Assembly: GCA_029550925.1 (NCBI GenBank)
Contig: JAKPGL010000183.1
Location: forward strand, 1 to 64,000
Reading direction: 5' to 3'
DNA: 64,000 nucleotides
Source of the DNA: Planctomycetota bacterium
GTDB taxonomy: Bacteria > Planctomycetota > Planctomycetia > Pirellulales > Thermoguttaceae
A program made the position numbers and the translations under genes. The notes beneath the pieces were generated by a model that worked only from the letters and a program-made list of their open reading frames with translations, was not told where the DNA came from and searched no databases. Shown piece after piece: positions 1 to 56,149 of this stretch. How positions within the stretch are numbered: position 1 is the first letter of the stretch; every line of letters starts with the position of its first letter.

Positions 1-173
1 TTTCTTAGCAAACCCCGAGATTTTTCCGGCGAATATGTCATTCCCGCTCTAGCGGGAATCTAGGCTTCTTGCAGCCGCTACTTGGGAGGAATAACAAGGT
101 CGCCGCCTCACAGGACCCTGGATTGAGAGCTTGCGCGGGAATGACAAGGTACTGCATTCGGCTAAAATGTTAC
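1..173. repeat. Partial MITE-like element, copy A (left end outside window)
   Basis: The right terminal inverted repeat (152-173, CTGCATTCGGCTAAAATGTT followed by AC) matches the ends of the other copies. The interior holds the inverted REP-like palindromes (CATTCCCGC...GCGGGAATC near 40-60) and the shared core around CTAGGCTTCTTGCAGCC. The outermost left sequence resembles the reverse complement of the right interior of copy E, with a shared CGAGATTTTTCCGGC stretch. The left terminal repeat lies before base 1. Confidence 0.75.
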
Positions 174-14209: not shown

Positions 14210-14294
14210 CTTAGGTCAACCTCGTTAGGTATTCATTTCCATCTCTTCAGCCCAGGGAAAAAGTTTCCTCTTTCTCCGAGGAAGGCGATATGGT

Positions 14295-14404
14295 GTCATT
14301 CCCGCGCACGCGGGAATCCAGGCTTCTTGCGTCTTCCCTTTGTAGGCATAACAAAGTACCCGCCTCATCACATCCTGGATCCCCGCTTTCGCGAGGATGA
14401 CAAG
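14295..14404. repeat. REP-like inverted pair without terminal repeats
   Basis: Two REP-like palindromes face each other: GTCATTCCCGCGCACGCGGG near 14295-14318 and the decayed CCCCGCTTTCGCGAGGATGAC near 14381-14401. Between them is the same GGCTTCTTGC core as in copies A, E and G. Neither GTAACATT terminal repeat is present. It lies between nuoH and nuoG, 31 bases from copy B. Confidence 0.65.
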
Positions 14405-14434: not shown

Positions 14435-14620
14435 GTAACATTTCAGCCGAGTGAAGAACATTCGCCTCTCCCCTGGCGGGAGAGGCCGGCTAGCCCTCAG
14501 GCTAGCCGGGTGAGGGGGAAAAGGGGGGATTTGTATCTTGCTTTGCCCCTTTCCTAACCCGCTTGACGCGGGACAAGAGGGGAGAAACCTAGGGTTAACT
14601 CCATTCGGCTGAAATGTTAC
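14435..14620. repeat. MITE-like element, copy B, with a different interior
   Basis: Inverted termini lie at 14435-14456 (GTAACATTTCAGCCGAGTGA) and 14599-14620 (its near-exact reverse complement). The interior is unrelated to the other copies. It contains other palindromes (CTCTCCCCTGGCGGGAGAG, GGCTAGCCCTCAGGCTAGCC) and CCCGCTTGACGCGGG. It lies inside the nuo operon between nuoH and nuoG. Its flanking 8 bases match poorly (about 4 of 8). Confidence 0.7.
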
Positions 14621-19664: not shown

Positions 19665-19690
19665 AAAAGGCTTCGACGGGGAAGCCTTTT
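19665..19690. other. Perfect 10-bp hairpin next to copy C
   Basis: AAAAGGCTTC (19665-19674) pairs exactly with GAAGCCTTTT (19681-19690) around a 6-base loop. On the plus strand it ends in a 6-U run and looks like a terminator, but no plus-strand gene precedes it. On the minus strand it lies inside the nuo mRNA, between nuoC and nuoD, and its U-tract is part of the stem, so it may be a weak attenuator. Confidence 0.5.
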
Positions 19691-19693
19691 TTC

Positions 19694-19879
19694 GTAACAC
19701 TTCGTCCGAATGAAGAAGCCACCTGATCTATGCGAGGAAAACCCTAGGTTGTCATTCCCCCGTAAGCGGGAATCCAGGTTCGTTCTCGTGAAAGCGGGAA
19801 ACCAGGAAATTACAACAGAAAAAACTGGATTCCTACTTTCGCAGGAAAGATAAGTTCCTCCATTCGGCGGAAGTGTTAC
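19694..19879. repeat. MITE-like element, copy C
   Basis: Terminal inverted repeats at 19694-19715 (GTAACACTTCGTCCGAATGA) and 19858-19879 match each other at about 20 of 22 positions. The adjoining 8 bases are CTTTTTTC on the left and TTTTTTTC on the right, a 7/8 direct repeat. The interior has a REP-like palindrome (GTCATTCCCCCGTAAGCGGG) and decayed copies. It sits in the nuo operon between nuoC and nuoD. Confidence 0.75.
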
Positions 19880-19951
19880 TTTTTTTCGAAATTACCTCCA
19901 ACGTTTCGGCTACATCGTATCCGGCTGGCTTTTGAATAGGTTCGAGTGGTT

Positions 19952-21657: not shown

Positions 21658-22101
21658 TCACGGGGGGCAGTCGGGAAGCCGGTTGCGATGCCCCCCTCCG
21701 ACCTACAACCGCTTCCGATAGCATCATGATGCTCGCTTCCAGCTGTAGCAATGACCGCCGGATGGGGCGGAGACGACTGTGCGGATGGAAGGCGTGAGGG
21801 CTAGTCTCCGCTGGCCAAACGATCCCGTCGCCCCGGATAATCGCCGACCAGGCGGCGAACCTCCTCAGAATCTCTATTTTTGTTGTAATTTTCTCCTACT
21901 ACTATTTTCTTCTTACCATACATATCTATTCCTTCCCCCCAACGGGTCTCTTACTGCTCTGAAAACTCCAACGCCCCTCCTCCTAATCCCTCGCCCCCCG
22001 TTCCCGAATCGCGCCCCCGCAACCGGCTGGCGGGGGAATCGGCCCCTCCAAGAAATTTCTCCGCGGACAAACGCTGTGATTCCAGGACCGGAAGAATTTT
22101 T
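21658..22101. other. Intergenic region, no gene seen
   Basis: It lies between the nuo promoter and copy D. It contains pyrimidine-rich, low-complexity sequence around 21890-21960 and short frames without recognisable starts or composition. No RNA gene was recognised. Confidence 0.4.
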
Positions 22102-22264
22102 GTAACATTTTAGCCCAATGCAGTACCTTGTCACTGCTACACAAGCAGGGATCCAGGTCTTTCAAGAGTTTTTGTTTTTCTGGATTCCCGCTTCCGCGGG
22201 AACGACAACCTTGGGCCAATTTCGCTCTAAAATAAGCCTCCTCTGCATTCGGCTAAAGTGTTAC
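22102..22264. repeat. MITE-like element, copy D, with exact 8-bp flanking repeat
   Basis: Terminal inverted repeats at 22102-22123 (GTAACATTTTAGCCCAATGC) and 22243-22264. The 8 bases on each side are identical, GAATTTTT at 22094-22101 and 22265-22272, as expected of a target-site duplication. The interior is shorter than in E or G (163 bp in all). It keeps GGATTCCCGCTTCCGCGGGA and the CCTTGGGCCAATTTCGCTCT segment shared with copy G. Confidence 0.82.
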
Positions 22265-22402
22265 GAATTTTTTCCCTCTTGCCGGTTGATCTTGGCGAGC
22301 AGAGCGATTAGCCTAGGAAGAGCGTCGGGGCTTTTCGACGCGAGGAGTTTCGTTTGGGTGAATGAAGAAATAGAAGCGTCTTATTTCCTGGAGTAGAAAC
22401 AT

Positions 22403-27787: not shown

Positions 27788-27880
27788 TCTTGGAAGCTCT
27801 AACAAAACGGCCTTTCCTACTTACTTCCTCCAGGGAGAGAGAATATTGGGGCTTCGTTTTGTTAGAGCCTCTTGGAAGCG
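27788..27880. repeat. Second repeat family (R2), copy 2, with inverted arms
   Basis: AGCTCTAACAAAACG (27795-27809) is inverted against CTTCGTTTTGTTAGAGCCTCT (27852-27872). TCTTGGAAG recurs beside both arms. The loop includes CTTCCTCCAGGGAGAGAGAA, which is also found in the 53.6-kb copy. It occupies the gap between the SDR and hflX. Confidence 0.55.
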
Positions 27881-31338: not shown

Positions 31339-31545
31339 GTAACATTTTAGCCGAATGCAGGACCTTGCCATTCCCGCGCAAACGGGAATCTAGGCTTCTT
31401 GCAGCCTCTACTTAGGAGGAATAACCACGTAGCCGCCTCATAGTCCCCTGGATTCCCGCTAGAGCGGCAGTGCCATTTCTGCCGGAAAAATCTCGGGTTT
31501 TGGTTAAGAAAATCCCGGCACTTCTGCACTCGGCTGAACAATTAC
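31339..31545. repeat. MITE-like element, copy E (207 bp)
   Basis: Terminal inverted repeats at 31339-31360 (GTAACATTTTAGCCGAATGC) and 31524-31545 (diverged at 5 of 22). Interior: CATTCCCGCGCAAACGGGAA, then TCTAGGCTTCTTGCAGCCTC as in copy G, then a right arm (CCCGCTAGAGCGGCAGTG) matching copy A in inverted orientation. No clear flanking direct repeat. It lies just upstream of the FHA gene, 45 bases from its start codon. Confidence 0.8.
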
Positions 31546-42298: not shown

Positions 42299-42342
42299 AG
42301 GTATAGGCTGTTTTGGAGAGCGGATCGCCTCCGTTTTCATTT

Positions 42343-42369
42343 GTCATTCCCGCGAAAGCGGGAATCCAG
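42343..42369. repeat. Solitary REP-like palindrome, copy F
   Basis: TGTCATTCCCGCGAAAGCGG followed by GAATCC closely matches the REP-like motif inside the MITE copies, but the GTAACATT ends are absent. It lies 45 bases after the msrB stop. Confidence 0.6.
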
Positions 42370-42489
42370 TATGTTGGCCGCTCCCGCGGCGGGAAAGGCC
42401 GCGTAAGAGCCGCCTCCGTGCAGCGCCGCCCGACCGTCAATCTGAAGACAGGGGGCGGCCCCGTTAGGGTCTCATTGTGTGAGAGACTC

Positions 42490-44664
42490 TTACTTCTTTG
42501 CCGGGGACGGCGGATCGGCGTAGAGTAAAAACTCCGGCTGGAAGCTCAACAAGGCCCCGAGGCCGCGAAACTGGATATAGACGTCTTCCAGAGTAGCCTC
42601 CTTGGGCCGAAGGAGCCGCAACTGGAGTATCCGATCTTTTTCTTGGGCCTCCAGGAGGATGGACCGGGGGCTGTCGCAATTGGCCTGTTGCCAGAGCAAT
42701 CGGCCTTCCTGATCCGTAAGTTCGACGCTGAATTGTTCTTTCGGTCCTTCGCCCGCTACGGAAACACCCAATCGTCTGTTGGCGGGCAGGTAGAGATAAT
42801 ACTGGCCGACGGTACCCAACAAGTGGATGAAGCCCCGCTGACCGCCGATAGCCGCCGGATGGCTGCTGCGAACCAATCGGAGGGTATTCAATCCCGGCAG
42901 GCCGACAATCTGGAAAACTCCGGTCTCTGGCGCTCGGAATTCCACCGAGGTGGTCTTTTGGAAGGGCAGTTCGACGCTTTGGACCTGGCGTCCTTCCGGA
43001 CTGTGGATTTCCACCCGGAGGAGTTTTCCCTGATATCGACCCACTTGCTGGTAGGCCATCTCCAACTGAACCAAATCGTTCTGTTGGGCGAAGATCAGAT
43101 AGCGGGCTTCGGCTCGGAGCCGATGCGGCGGCAGTTGTTGGAGCGCGCCGGCGGCCCGCTTGTTTTCCACCACACGCAGCCGGTCCAAGGGCGCCAACGG
43201 CAATTGCCGAATCGGATCGCACGGGAAATGCCGCTCCAACCACTCCGGCCCCAGGTCATACCGGATGGTCTCTTGCCCCTTTTGCACGAGGATTTGTCCG
43301 TGGATTTCCCGCAGACAGACGCCAGCCGAGTTTTCAAATCGGATGGGCGGTCGGCCCGCGGGATCGACGATCTGAAAGTCCTCGAACCGGACTTGGCCCA
43401 CATCCTGCTCATCGCCGCTGGACGACCGGAAGACAATCGGGGCGACCGGTTTAGGCTCTGGCGACGGGTCGGCAAGCCGACACCCGGAAAACCGCACCTG
43501 CAAACCATTCACCGGATTTTGGACCACGATCCTCATCTGGCCTGCGTCCTCAAACCGACAGCCCACTACCTCCACTACGCCTCGAACCGCCTCGTCTGGG
43601 CCGCCGCGGTTGACGATGCTCAGGGAACCAGCGTTGGTCCCCCGGCTGGTGCAGTTTTCCAGCCGGATGGAAATCGGTCGGCTTGAGGCGTTCATGGCCC
43701 CTAAATAGACATGCATCCCGAAACTGGCGTTATCCTCAAACACGCAGTTCCGTAACACACAGTTGGTCAGCAGTTCTTGGGGCCGGTTCGGCTCGAAGTC
43801 GATGCCCGCTGCGGGCGGCGTGCCCCGGGTCCCCCGCATGACGACATTTTCCAGCAGAAGGTTTTCGGCCGTGATGACGCTAATGCCTTGCCGATAGTTG
43901 TTCAGGCAGACGACGTTCCGGATAGTGATGTTTCGGTTGGGTTCGCCCCGACGGCCAGCACCCAGGTACACGCCGTCGCCGCCGCTTTCAGCCAAGGTGA
44001 GGCCCTCCACCAGCACGTCGGAGCAGCCACGCAGGCTCAAGACATGCCGCCACTCGGCCTTTTCGTAGGGCGGCTGGTCATAGTCGGCCCGCCACATCCG
44101 CAGGGTGGCCCTTGGGCCGATCAGCTTCAGATGGCTTTGGTTCCAGGCGGTAAACAGGCTATCGCCTTTGCCGCGGAAAGCGCCCCGTTTGGCGATCACC
44201 TCGACGCCCGGCTCAAAGACGATCTCCTTCTCGCCCACCAGCTCGATCTTATCGACGATCCAGGCGGTGGGCATTTTCGGGATGATCACCTTTTTGGCCT
44301 TCGACCGCAGCGCCGATTGCAAGGCCCGTGTGGCGTCCTGCGGGTCGAATCCCCACCAGGAGGCATACGCCACCGCCCGTCGGCCAGCCTCCACCTCTTG
44401 AACCGCCTCTGGATTGGCTGCGTGCAGGGCGGAATCGGCAGATGGACCGGCCTGAGCGGCAGAAAGGAGGGAGGATTTTTCCTTCGGAATCGGTTGGATG
44501 TTCGGCGGCATGGCCGAACCGGACGAAGGATCGGCCTTCTGCTCAGCGACCGCACCCCATGACCCCGCCGTTTCCCCCTTCCCCCATAAATGGATGCTGA
44601 CGCCTACCAGGATCATGCTGAACAGTGTGCAAGCAAACGGACTCGTGCAGGGTTGCTTTTTCAT
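42490..44664 (-). CDS. Secreted right-handed beta-helix protein
   Basis: A 724-residue exported protein with an N-terminal signal (about 1-32). The parallel beta-helix region lies at about 75-410: repeated short strands such as NITIRNVVCLNNYRQGISVITAENLLLENVVMRGT and GVYLGAGRRG. Such folds are found in polysaccharide lyases, hydrolases and surface adhesins. The C-terminal half is mostly beta (about 420-720) and may be a sugar-binding or anchoring region. No catalytic set can be named. ATG at 44664 follows AGGA; the frame continues to 44730. Confidence 0.75.
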   Translation of the reverse strand: MKKQPCTSPFACTLFSMILVGVSIHLWGKGETAGSWGAVAEQKADPSSGSAMPPNIQPIPKEKSSLLSAAQAGPSADSALHAANPEAVQEVEAGRRAVAYASWWGFDPQDATRALQSALRSKAKKVIIPKMPTAWIVDKIELVGEKEIVFEPGVEVIAKRGAFRGKGDSLFTAWNQSHLKLIGPRATLRMWRADYDQPPYEKAEWRHVLSLRGCSDVLVEGLTLAESGGDGVYLGAGRRGEPNRNITIRNVVCLNNYRQGISVITAENLLLENVVMRGTRGTPPAAGIDFEPNRPQELLTNCVLRNCVFEDNASFGMHVYLGAMNASSRPISIRLENCTSRGTNAGSLSIVNRGGPDEAVRGVVEVVGCRFEDAGQMRIVVQNPVNGLQVRFSGCRLADPSPEPKPVAPIVFRSSSGDEQDVGQVRFEDFQIVDPAGRPPIRFENSAGVCLREIHGQILVQKGQETIRYDLGPEWLERHFPCDPIRQLPLAPLDRLRVVENKRAAGALQQLPPHRLRAEARYLIFAQQNDLVQLEMAYQQVGRYQGKLLRVEIHSPEGRQVQSVELPFQKTTSVEFRAPETGVFQIVGLPGLNTLRLVRSSHPAAIGGQRGFIHLLGTVGQYYLYLPANRRLGVSVAGEGPKEQFSVELTDQEGRLLWQQANCDSPRSILLEAQEKDRILQLRLLRPKEATLEDVYIQFRGLGALLSFQPEFLLYADPPSPAKK

Positions 44665-47529: not shown

Positions 47530-47559
47530 ATCGCGTTTTTTCAGAAAAAAGAGAAAAAG

Positions 47560-47753
47560 GTAACATTTTAGCCGAATACAGTACCTTGTCATTCCCGCGC
47601 AAGCGGGAATCTAGGCTTCTTGCAGCCGCTACTTGGGAGGAATAACAACGTAGTCGCCTCACAGGACCCTGGATTCCCGCCTCCGCGGGAATGACAACCT
47701 TGGGCCAATTTCGCTCTAAAATCAGCCTCCTCTGCATTCGGCTGAAATGTTAC
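47560..47753. repeat. MITE-like element, copy G, between feoA and feoB
   Basis: Terminal inverted repeats at 47560-47581 (GTAACATTTTAGCCGAATAC) and 47732-47753 (mismatches at about 2 of 22). Flanking direct repeat AGAAAAAG (47552-47559) versus AGAAAGAG (47754-47761), 7/8. The interior has two inverted REP palindromes (ATTCCCGCGCAAGCGGGAAT and ATTCCCGCCTCCGCGGGAAT) and the GGCTTCTTGCAGCC core. It is the best-preserved full copy. Confidence 0.85.
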
Positions 47754-47938
47754 AGAAAGAGAAAAAGGAAGTCTTTCCTGTATTCACCTCCTGCCCCACG
47801 AAGACGCCCGCCTTCTTCCGTTCGACATTTCCCTGGGATGGAGAAGCGTCTGTCAGACGGCAATCTATTGGTCCATCGGCCCCCAAGCCGGTAAAGACCG
47901 GCTTCCCACCCATGAGGCGCGAAGCGTCTCCTACGAAC

Positions 47939-50240: not shown

Positions 50241-50455
50241 CAGCGTCTGGAACAATTCCCCCATACCAGCAGCGGCATGGCCCCCGAACCAGCAGCGGCA
50301 ATGGCCCCCGCCCCAGAGGAAAATCTTTCTGGATTCCCACTTGCACGGGCCGGACAATCACCGAGCCCTTGGATGCTGGAACCCTTCCACGGTCGAGGGC
50401 GTGTTGGGGGCGGTTCGGACAGCAGCCTTTTCCATAGGCAGACATCGGCCCGCCA

Positions 50456-53591: not shown

Positions 53592-53652
53592 ACTTCCTCC
53601 AGCGGGGAGAATAGGTTGAATCTTTTGAGGCTTCGTTTTGTTAGAGCCTCTA
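53592..53652. repeat. Second repeat family (R2), copy 3
   Basis: CTTCCTCCAGCGGGGAGAAT and CTTCGTTTTGTTAGAGCCTC match the 27.8-kb copy, and TTTTGAGG also matches the 0.5-kb copy. The inverted left arm is missing here. Confidence 0.5.
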
Positions 53653-54183: not shown

Positions 54184-54257
54184 CGACCCCGACGGGATTT
54201 GAACCCGTGTTACAGGCTTGAAAGGCCTGTGTCCTGACCGGGCTAGACGACGGGGCC
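54184..54257 (-). tRNA. tRNA-Glu (UUC)
   Basis: Read on the minus strand it starts GGCCCCGTCGTCTAGCCCGG. The acceptor GGCCCCG pairs with CGGGGTC. The anticodon loop CTTTCAA gives UUC. The T arm is CGGGTTCAAATCCCG. The 3' CCA is not encoded. Its promoter and 5' hairpin lie at 54341-54412. Confidence 0.95.
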
Positions 54258-55953: not shown

Positions 55954-56149
55954 GTAACATTTTAGCCGAATGCAGTACCTTGTTACTGCCGCGCAATCGC
56001 CCAATCTAGGCTTCTTGCAGCCTCTCCTTGGGAGAAATAACAACGTCGCCGCCTCATAGGCCCCTGGATTGAGAGTTTGCGAGGGAATGACAATATCGGG
56101 CGAACTTCGCCCTACAAGAAGCCCCCTTTGCATTTGGCTAAAATGTTAC
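55954..56149. repeat. MITE-like element, copy H
   Basis: Terminal inverted repeats at 55954-55975 (GTAACATTTTAGCCGAATGC) and 56128-56149 (about 3 mismatches). The REP palindromes inside are decayed, but the CTAGGCTTCTTGCAGCC core and GGGAATGAC are kept. It lacks a clear flanking direct repeat. It lies next to the NuoI-like gene terminator. Confidence 0.78.

Follow-up and report, generated by a model that had tools for sequence, protein, structure and literature searches.

The window, the whole 64-kb stretch of planctomycete DNA that we analyzed, opens at base 1 of its contig (C42). Within it the motif GTAACATT occurs 10 times, against 0.59 occurrences expected, and we delimited six complete elements (B, C, D, E, G and H) and one truncated element (A). 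The consensus of their 22-bp inverted-repeat ends is GTAACATTTTAGCCGAATGCAG. A first-pass annotation had reported at least seven copies of a short element with ends of about 22 bp; its borders were exact for the six complete elements, and the stretch that it listed as A (152-173) proved to be one end of a truncated element.

Element D (22102-22264, 163 bp), a short variant of the main interior family, is flanked by exact 8-bp copies of GAATTTTT at 22094-22101 and 22265-22272. Element G (47560-47753, 194 bp), also of the main family, lies between AGAAAAAG (47552-47559) and AGAAAGAG (47754-47761), which match at 7 of 8 positions. The same degree of match was observed for element C (19694-19879, 186 bp), which represents a third interior family and lies between CTTTTTTC (19686-19693) and TTTTTTTC (19880-19887). 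The flanking repeats that the annotation had described for D, C and G were thus confirmed. The flanks match at 5/8 positions for B (14435-14620, 186 bp; second interior family, with the palindrome CCTCTCCC...GGGAGAGG), at 2/8 for H (55954-56149, 196 bp; main family) and at 0/8 for E (31339-31545, 207 bp). Over 48 bp, the right end of E is 85% identical to the end of an IS66 copy on contig C4 that carries a deletion. Element A (9-173, minus strand) is an E-type MITE, of which positions 9-145 give an inverted match to the E-type interior and the sole terminal repeat (152-173) is the inner end. It is truncated because the contig start, where the window opens, falls inside it.

Profile searches detected no IS66 transposase on the window's contig, in agreement with the earlier statement that the window holds no transposase. 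The sole Rfam match in the window was a tRNA gene on the minus strand (54184-54257).

Copy number and size of the elements

When the 4.9-Mb source genome was searched with the degenerate end GTAACAYTTYRGCCGARTGNAG, allowing up to 3 mismatches, 531 matches were obtained (275 forward, 256 reverse); the control, the same pattern read backwards, gave none across the genome. The number of ends corresponds to approximately 265 elements, or roughly 1% of the genome. The search for the ends as an inverted pair, which the first-pass annotation had proposed, further yielded 107 pairs in a 1.08-Mb sample of this genome. Apart from four longer chance pairs, these were 76-357 bp in length; most measured 145-290 bp, with a strong mode at about 186-202 bp. 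No paired element contained a transposase, and the MITEs are short and non-coding. We considered paired ends 1.2-2.5 kb apart as candidate autonomous copies and rejected them as chance neighbors, as they enclosed ordinary genes and no transposases. None of 103 MITEs lay in an ORF of at least 250 aa, though such ORFs span 72% of the sequence. This strongly intergenic position is consistent with purging of insertions into genes.

Target duplications and empty sites

Exact 8-bp duplications flanked 28 of the 105 sample pairs with readable flanks. When right flanks were shuffled among elements in 500 trials, the mean number was 0.29 and the maximum was 3, and the mean flank identity at 8 bp was 0.62 compared with 0.31 after shuffling. 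No comparable excess was detected at any other duplication length from 2 to 14 bp. The flanking repeats are thus far better than random. Further, loci with the same ends in other MAGs carried exact 8-bp duplications in 14 of 39 cases. About three quarters of the elements now have no exact duplication; the presence of one in just a quarter or so fits a mostly old population of copies.

To find empty sites, the two flanks of an element were joined, one copy of the duplication was dropped and the product was matched to the source genome. Base-precise empty sites were found in two cases, both from within this genome. The element at L045:12754-12915 (162 bp, duplication CTGTTTTT) interrupts a dispersed repeat, of which uninterrupted copies run through the site and keep a single copy of the target (L089:12497-12654, L081:128-277, L044:543-686, L056:2-143 and L072:12184-12301). 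The element at L050:3169-3369 (duplication GAAGCCGG) has inserted into another MITE of the family, which is intact at L048:17786-17945, among other places.

The annotation had looked to close relatives for empty sites. A genome of the same genus (G001) has orthologs of the spacers that contain C, G and H, but these fall short by 190, 184 and 196 bp, respectively, and lack the three elements; the sequence is too diverged for a base-precise join, so that this precision was reached only within the source genome. In the same comparison, synteny breaks at D, and the spacers of B and E differ in composition.

An IS66 transposase beside identical ends

The profile PF03050 (DDE_Tnp_IS66) matched at three places in the source genome. 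On contig C224, a transposase ORF of at least 385 codons, with a GTG start preceded by AAGGAG, runs off the contig. It scored 196.4 bits against NF033517, the NCBIfam IS66 transposase model (cut-off 180), and 91.9 bits against PF03050 (cut-off 23.1). The ORF starts 89 bp inside an end (L031:932-953) that is identical to the MITE consensus at 22 of 22 positions. The first-pass annotation had called the ends of the elements IS66-like, and this identity bears it out. Neither tnpA nor tnpB was found upstream of the ORF, as just these 89 bp separate the start of the end from the GTG codon.

The annotation had also proposed a search for a full-length IS66 copy with the same ends. The transposase and its adjoining end were found, but no contig of the source genome holds a complete IS with both ends. 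The IS copies break at contig edges, with the left half on C224 and the right end on C232. The latter contig opens with an IS66 C-terminus, and the IS end there has 3 mismatches; the region of the catalytic Glu and the right end are accordingly known from C232 and not from C224. An internally deleted IS copy is present on C149, and the same left end recurs at the edges of C123 and C117. This left end is thus represented by at least four copies, which are 98-100% identical over 87-109 bp. C224 and C149 are broken at the same place, which suggests a multi-copy element that the assembly left unresolved. Since C123 and C149 bear MITEs as well as IS ends, the IS is unlikely to have been mis-binned. 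A stretch similar to a 27-bp dispersed repeat of the window (TTGGGGCTTCGTTTTGTTAGAGCCTCT) was noticed near an IS66 remnant in L032.

The second IS66, the deleted copy on C4, has an end with 6 mismatches to the MITE consensus. Sixteen loci of the source-genome sample, element E among them, have 31-49 bp in common with this end at 85-97% identity, a count that leaves out one further match at 80%. In the main MITE class, by contrast, the 22-bp ends alone are common to the MITEs and the active IS, and no subterminal sequence is. IS66-like genes of two other genomes of the same family, G003 and G009, have nearby ends with 3-4 mismatches in fitting positions (GTAAGACTTCAGCCGTCTGAAG and GTAACACATCAGCCCTTTGAAG, respectively).

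IS families other than IS66 also make 8-bp duplications, and mobilization by IS66 is itself deduced from sequence; hence one might suppose that a different 8-bp-duplicating family moved the MITEs and that the resemblance to IS66 ends is coincidental. We consider this very unlikely, as the genome itself has an IS66 transposase beside an end that matches at 22/22, a deleted IS66 has up to 49 bp in common with a subclass of the MITEs, and the IS66-like genes of G003 and G009 have related ends nearby.

Single-gene IS66 elements, the ISBst12 group, are not known to carry tnpA and tnpB. The closest known type for the partner would be such a single-transposase IS66 element. It resembles the IS66 family in a DDE_Tnp_IS66 domain above the NCBIfam cut-off, in GTAA ends and in 8-bp duplications, and differs from classical IS66, which has tnpA and tnpB upstream, in the 89-bp gap without these genes. 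The subgroup name ISBst12 is in use (PMC8024623), and 8-bp duplications are documented for IS66 elements (PMC3281130 Table 2; PMC11946415). The IS66 end has been given as GTAAGCG (PMC11946415), whereas the ends described here read GTAACATT.

Interiors, palindromes and conservation

Among 103 elements, 67 have the main interior, 11 the B-type and 4 the C-type. The palindrome ATTCCC-N8-GGGAAT was present in 59 of the 103, at a density of 3.6 per kb inside MITEs compared with 0.10 per kb outside, and the CCTCTCCC...GGGAGAGG palindrome was present in 14 elements. The palindrome arms consist of a few interchangeable variants, which are often non-complementary within one copy. In element G (window 47560-47753) and its relatives, the variants ATTCCCGC, ACTGCCGC, ATTGAGAGC and ATTGGGCGC (alignment A1, columns 55-87 and 146-177) occur in mosaic combinations between copies. 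Gene conversion between copies might explain these mosaics. Palindromes of the MITE type also stand alone in the window, outside the elements, at 14277-14322, 14372-14403, 42325-42370 and 50326-50357.

Such palindromes recall REP and dRS3-like repeats, to which the ATTCCC-N8-GGGAAT modules are similar. The elements could then be REP-like or BIME palindromes that were dispersed through a RAYT (Y1 tyrosine) transposase or in connection with replication, with GTAA ends that are incidental; in favor of this are the dispersed palindromes of the interiors, which are found in the window by themselves as well. However, the exact duplications in 28/105 pairs and the precise empty sites refute it, as REP/RAYT spread is not known to leave 8-bp duplications. 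Further, the ends are the best-conserved part of the elements, the same ends enclose unrelated interiors, and the genome has no Y1_Tnp (PF01797) gene. We therefore regard this explanation as scarcely credible. Unlike REP and dRS3-like repeats, the palindromes here are carried as cargo by units with transposon ends and target duplications, in a genome without a RAYT gene.

Conservation was 0.92 and 0.90 at the two MITE ends and 0.81 in the interior. No conserved RNA fold was detected (RNAalifold consensus, -3.8 kcal/mol), and the MITEs had no match in Rfam. The best-conserved ends and the lack of a common fold form a pattern that would be expected from selection for transposase binding and not for RNA. 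These results also bear on the idea that the copies, being strongly intergenic and palindromic, are regulatory or structural RNA or DNA elements, such as terminators or riboswitch-like sequences, that were duplicated with their neighborhood and not transposed. The flanks, however, are unrelated between copies and the duplications are exact; neither a consensus fold nor covariation nor an Rfam match was found, and the elements are missing from the orthologous spacers of G001. It is most improbable that the elements arose in this way.

Distribution among genomes

Among 196 genomes of the order, exact ends were present in six; the source genome had 313, compared with 29 and 42 in the two genomes of the same genus. 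The same ends occurred in named Planctomycetota and in Hydrogenedentota MAGs among the matches listed, and plasmid records gave no match. The named matches suggest a Thermoguttaceae-like lineage of Planctomycetota for the source genome. The distribution of the MITE family is thus patchy across Planctomycetota and Hydrogenedentota.

A MAG from another planctomycete (G030, VGYV01) has many copies of a MITE of exactly 151 bp that carries these ends (L125, L136, L150, L164, L170, L172 and other loci), and several of the copies have exact 8-bp duplications. This was apparently a separate burst. As a candidate second genome with both the MITEs and an IS66 that bears their ends, G030 was rejected: IS66 genes are present, but just a weak end with 7 mismatches lies near one of them.

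Probable mobilization of the MITEs by an IS66-type element

Taken together, the identical ends, the target duplications and the empty sites indicate that the elements are MITEs that owe their movement to the transposase encoded by an IS66-type IS with the same ends (probability about 0.92). The IS66 transposase would recognize the 22-bp inverted repeats of a MITE as its own ends and cut or copy the MITE out, and insertion at staggered cuts would create the 8-bp duplications. Mobilization in trans by IS66 had been proposed in the first-pass annotation; matching ends, duplications and empty sites now support the proposal, and from the sequences we infer that the movement itself would be due to a transposase of the C224 type or a recent relative of it.

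The MITEs, with a median nearest-neighbor identity of approximately 85%, thus predate the near-identical IS copies, and an earlier relative of the present transposase may have moved most of them. The two kinds of interior suggest two kinds of origin: the main class probably arose when unrelated palindromic DNA was captured between two IS66 ends, and the E class probably derives from an internally deleted IS66. It is possible, if rather doubtful, that IS66 ends repeatedly captured unrelated dispersed palindromes and spread them as cargo, with at least three interior families as the outcome, and that REP-like palindromes are distributed in this genome mainly by an IS66 transposase and not by a RAYT.

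MITEs related to resident IS elements are known from Pseudomonas syringae (MITEPsy1, related to IS5-type elements; PMC3189936) and Cardinium (MITECca01, related to IS982; PMC9769881). Like these, the present elements are short, non-coding and multi-copy, carry the inverted repeats of a resident IS and putatively move in trans. They differ in their link to IS66 and in that one kind of end encloses several unrelated interiors, and MITEPsy1 has far fewer copies than the approximately 265 found here. We found no paper tying MITEs to IS66 in the open-access literature, which is weak evidence of priority as subscription papers mostly lie outside it. Overall, this is an ordinary, well-supported IS-driven MITE family, numerous in its genome and mosaic in its palindromic interiors. 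Little has been described of mobile elements in this phylum, to which an IS66-linked MITE family is now added, and the case illustrates that reading the raw sequence together with statistics over the whole genome can match non-autonomous elements to the transposase that probably moves them. These multi-copy elements also help to account for the positions of breaks in this assembly.

Other dispersed repeats

The 27-bp repeat mentioned above is unrelated to the MITE ends. It occurs in the window at 497-523, 27846-27872, 42464-42490 and 53625-53651, in copies that are 74-100% identical to the reference copy.

Another dispersed repeat, of about 215-230 bp (GTTTACCCAGTGTGGGATGATCGCC...), was noticed at L033:1111-1325 (= L055), with copies in L044, L089, L066, L071 and L075; the copies are 84-97% identical. 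In L044 it directly adjoins the repeat that is interrupted at the empty site of L045, and both may belong to a single larger element.
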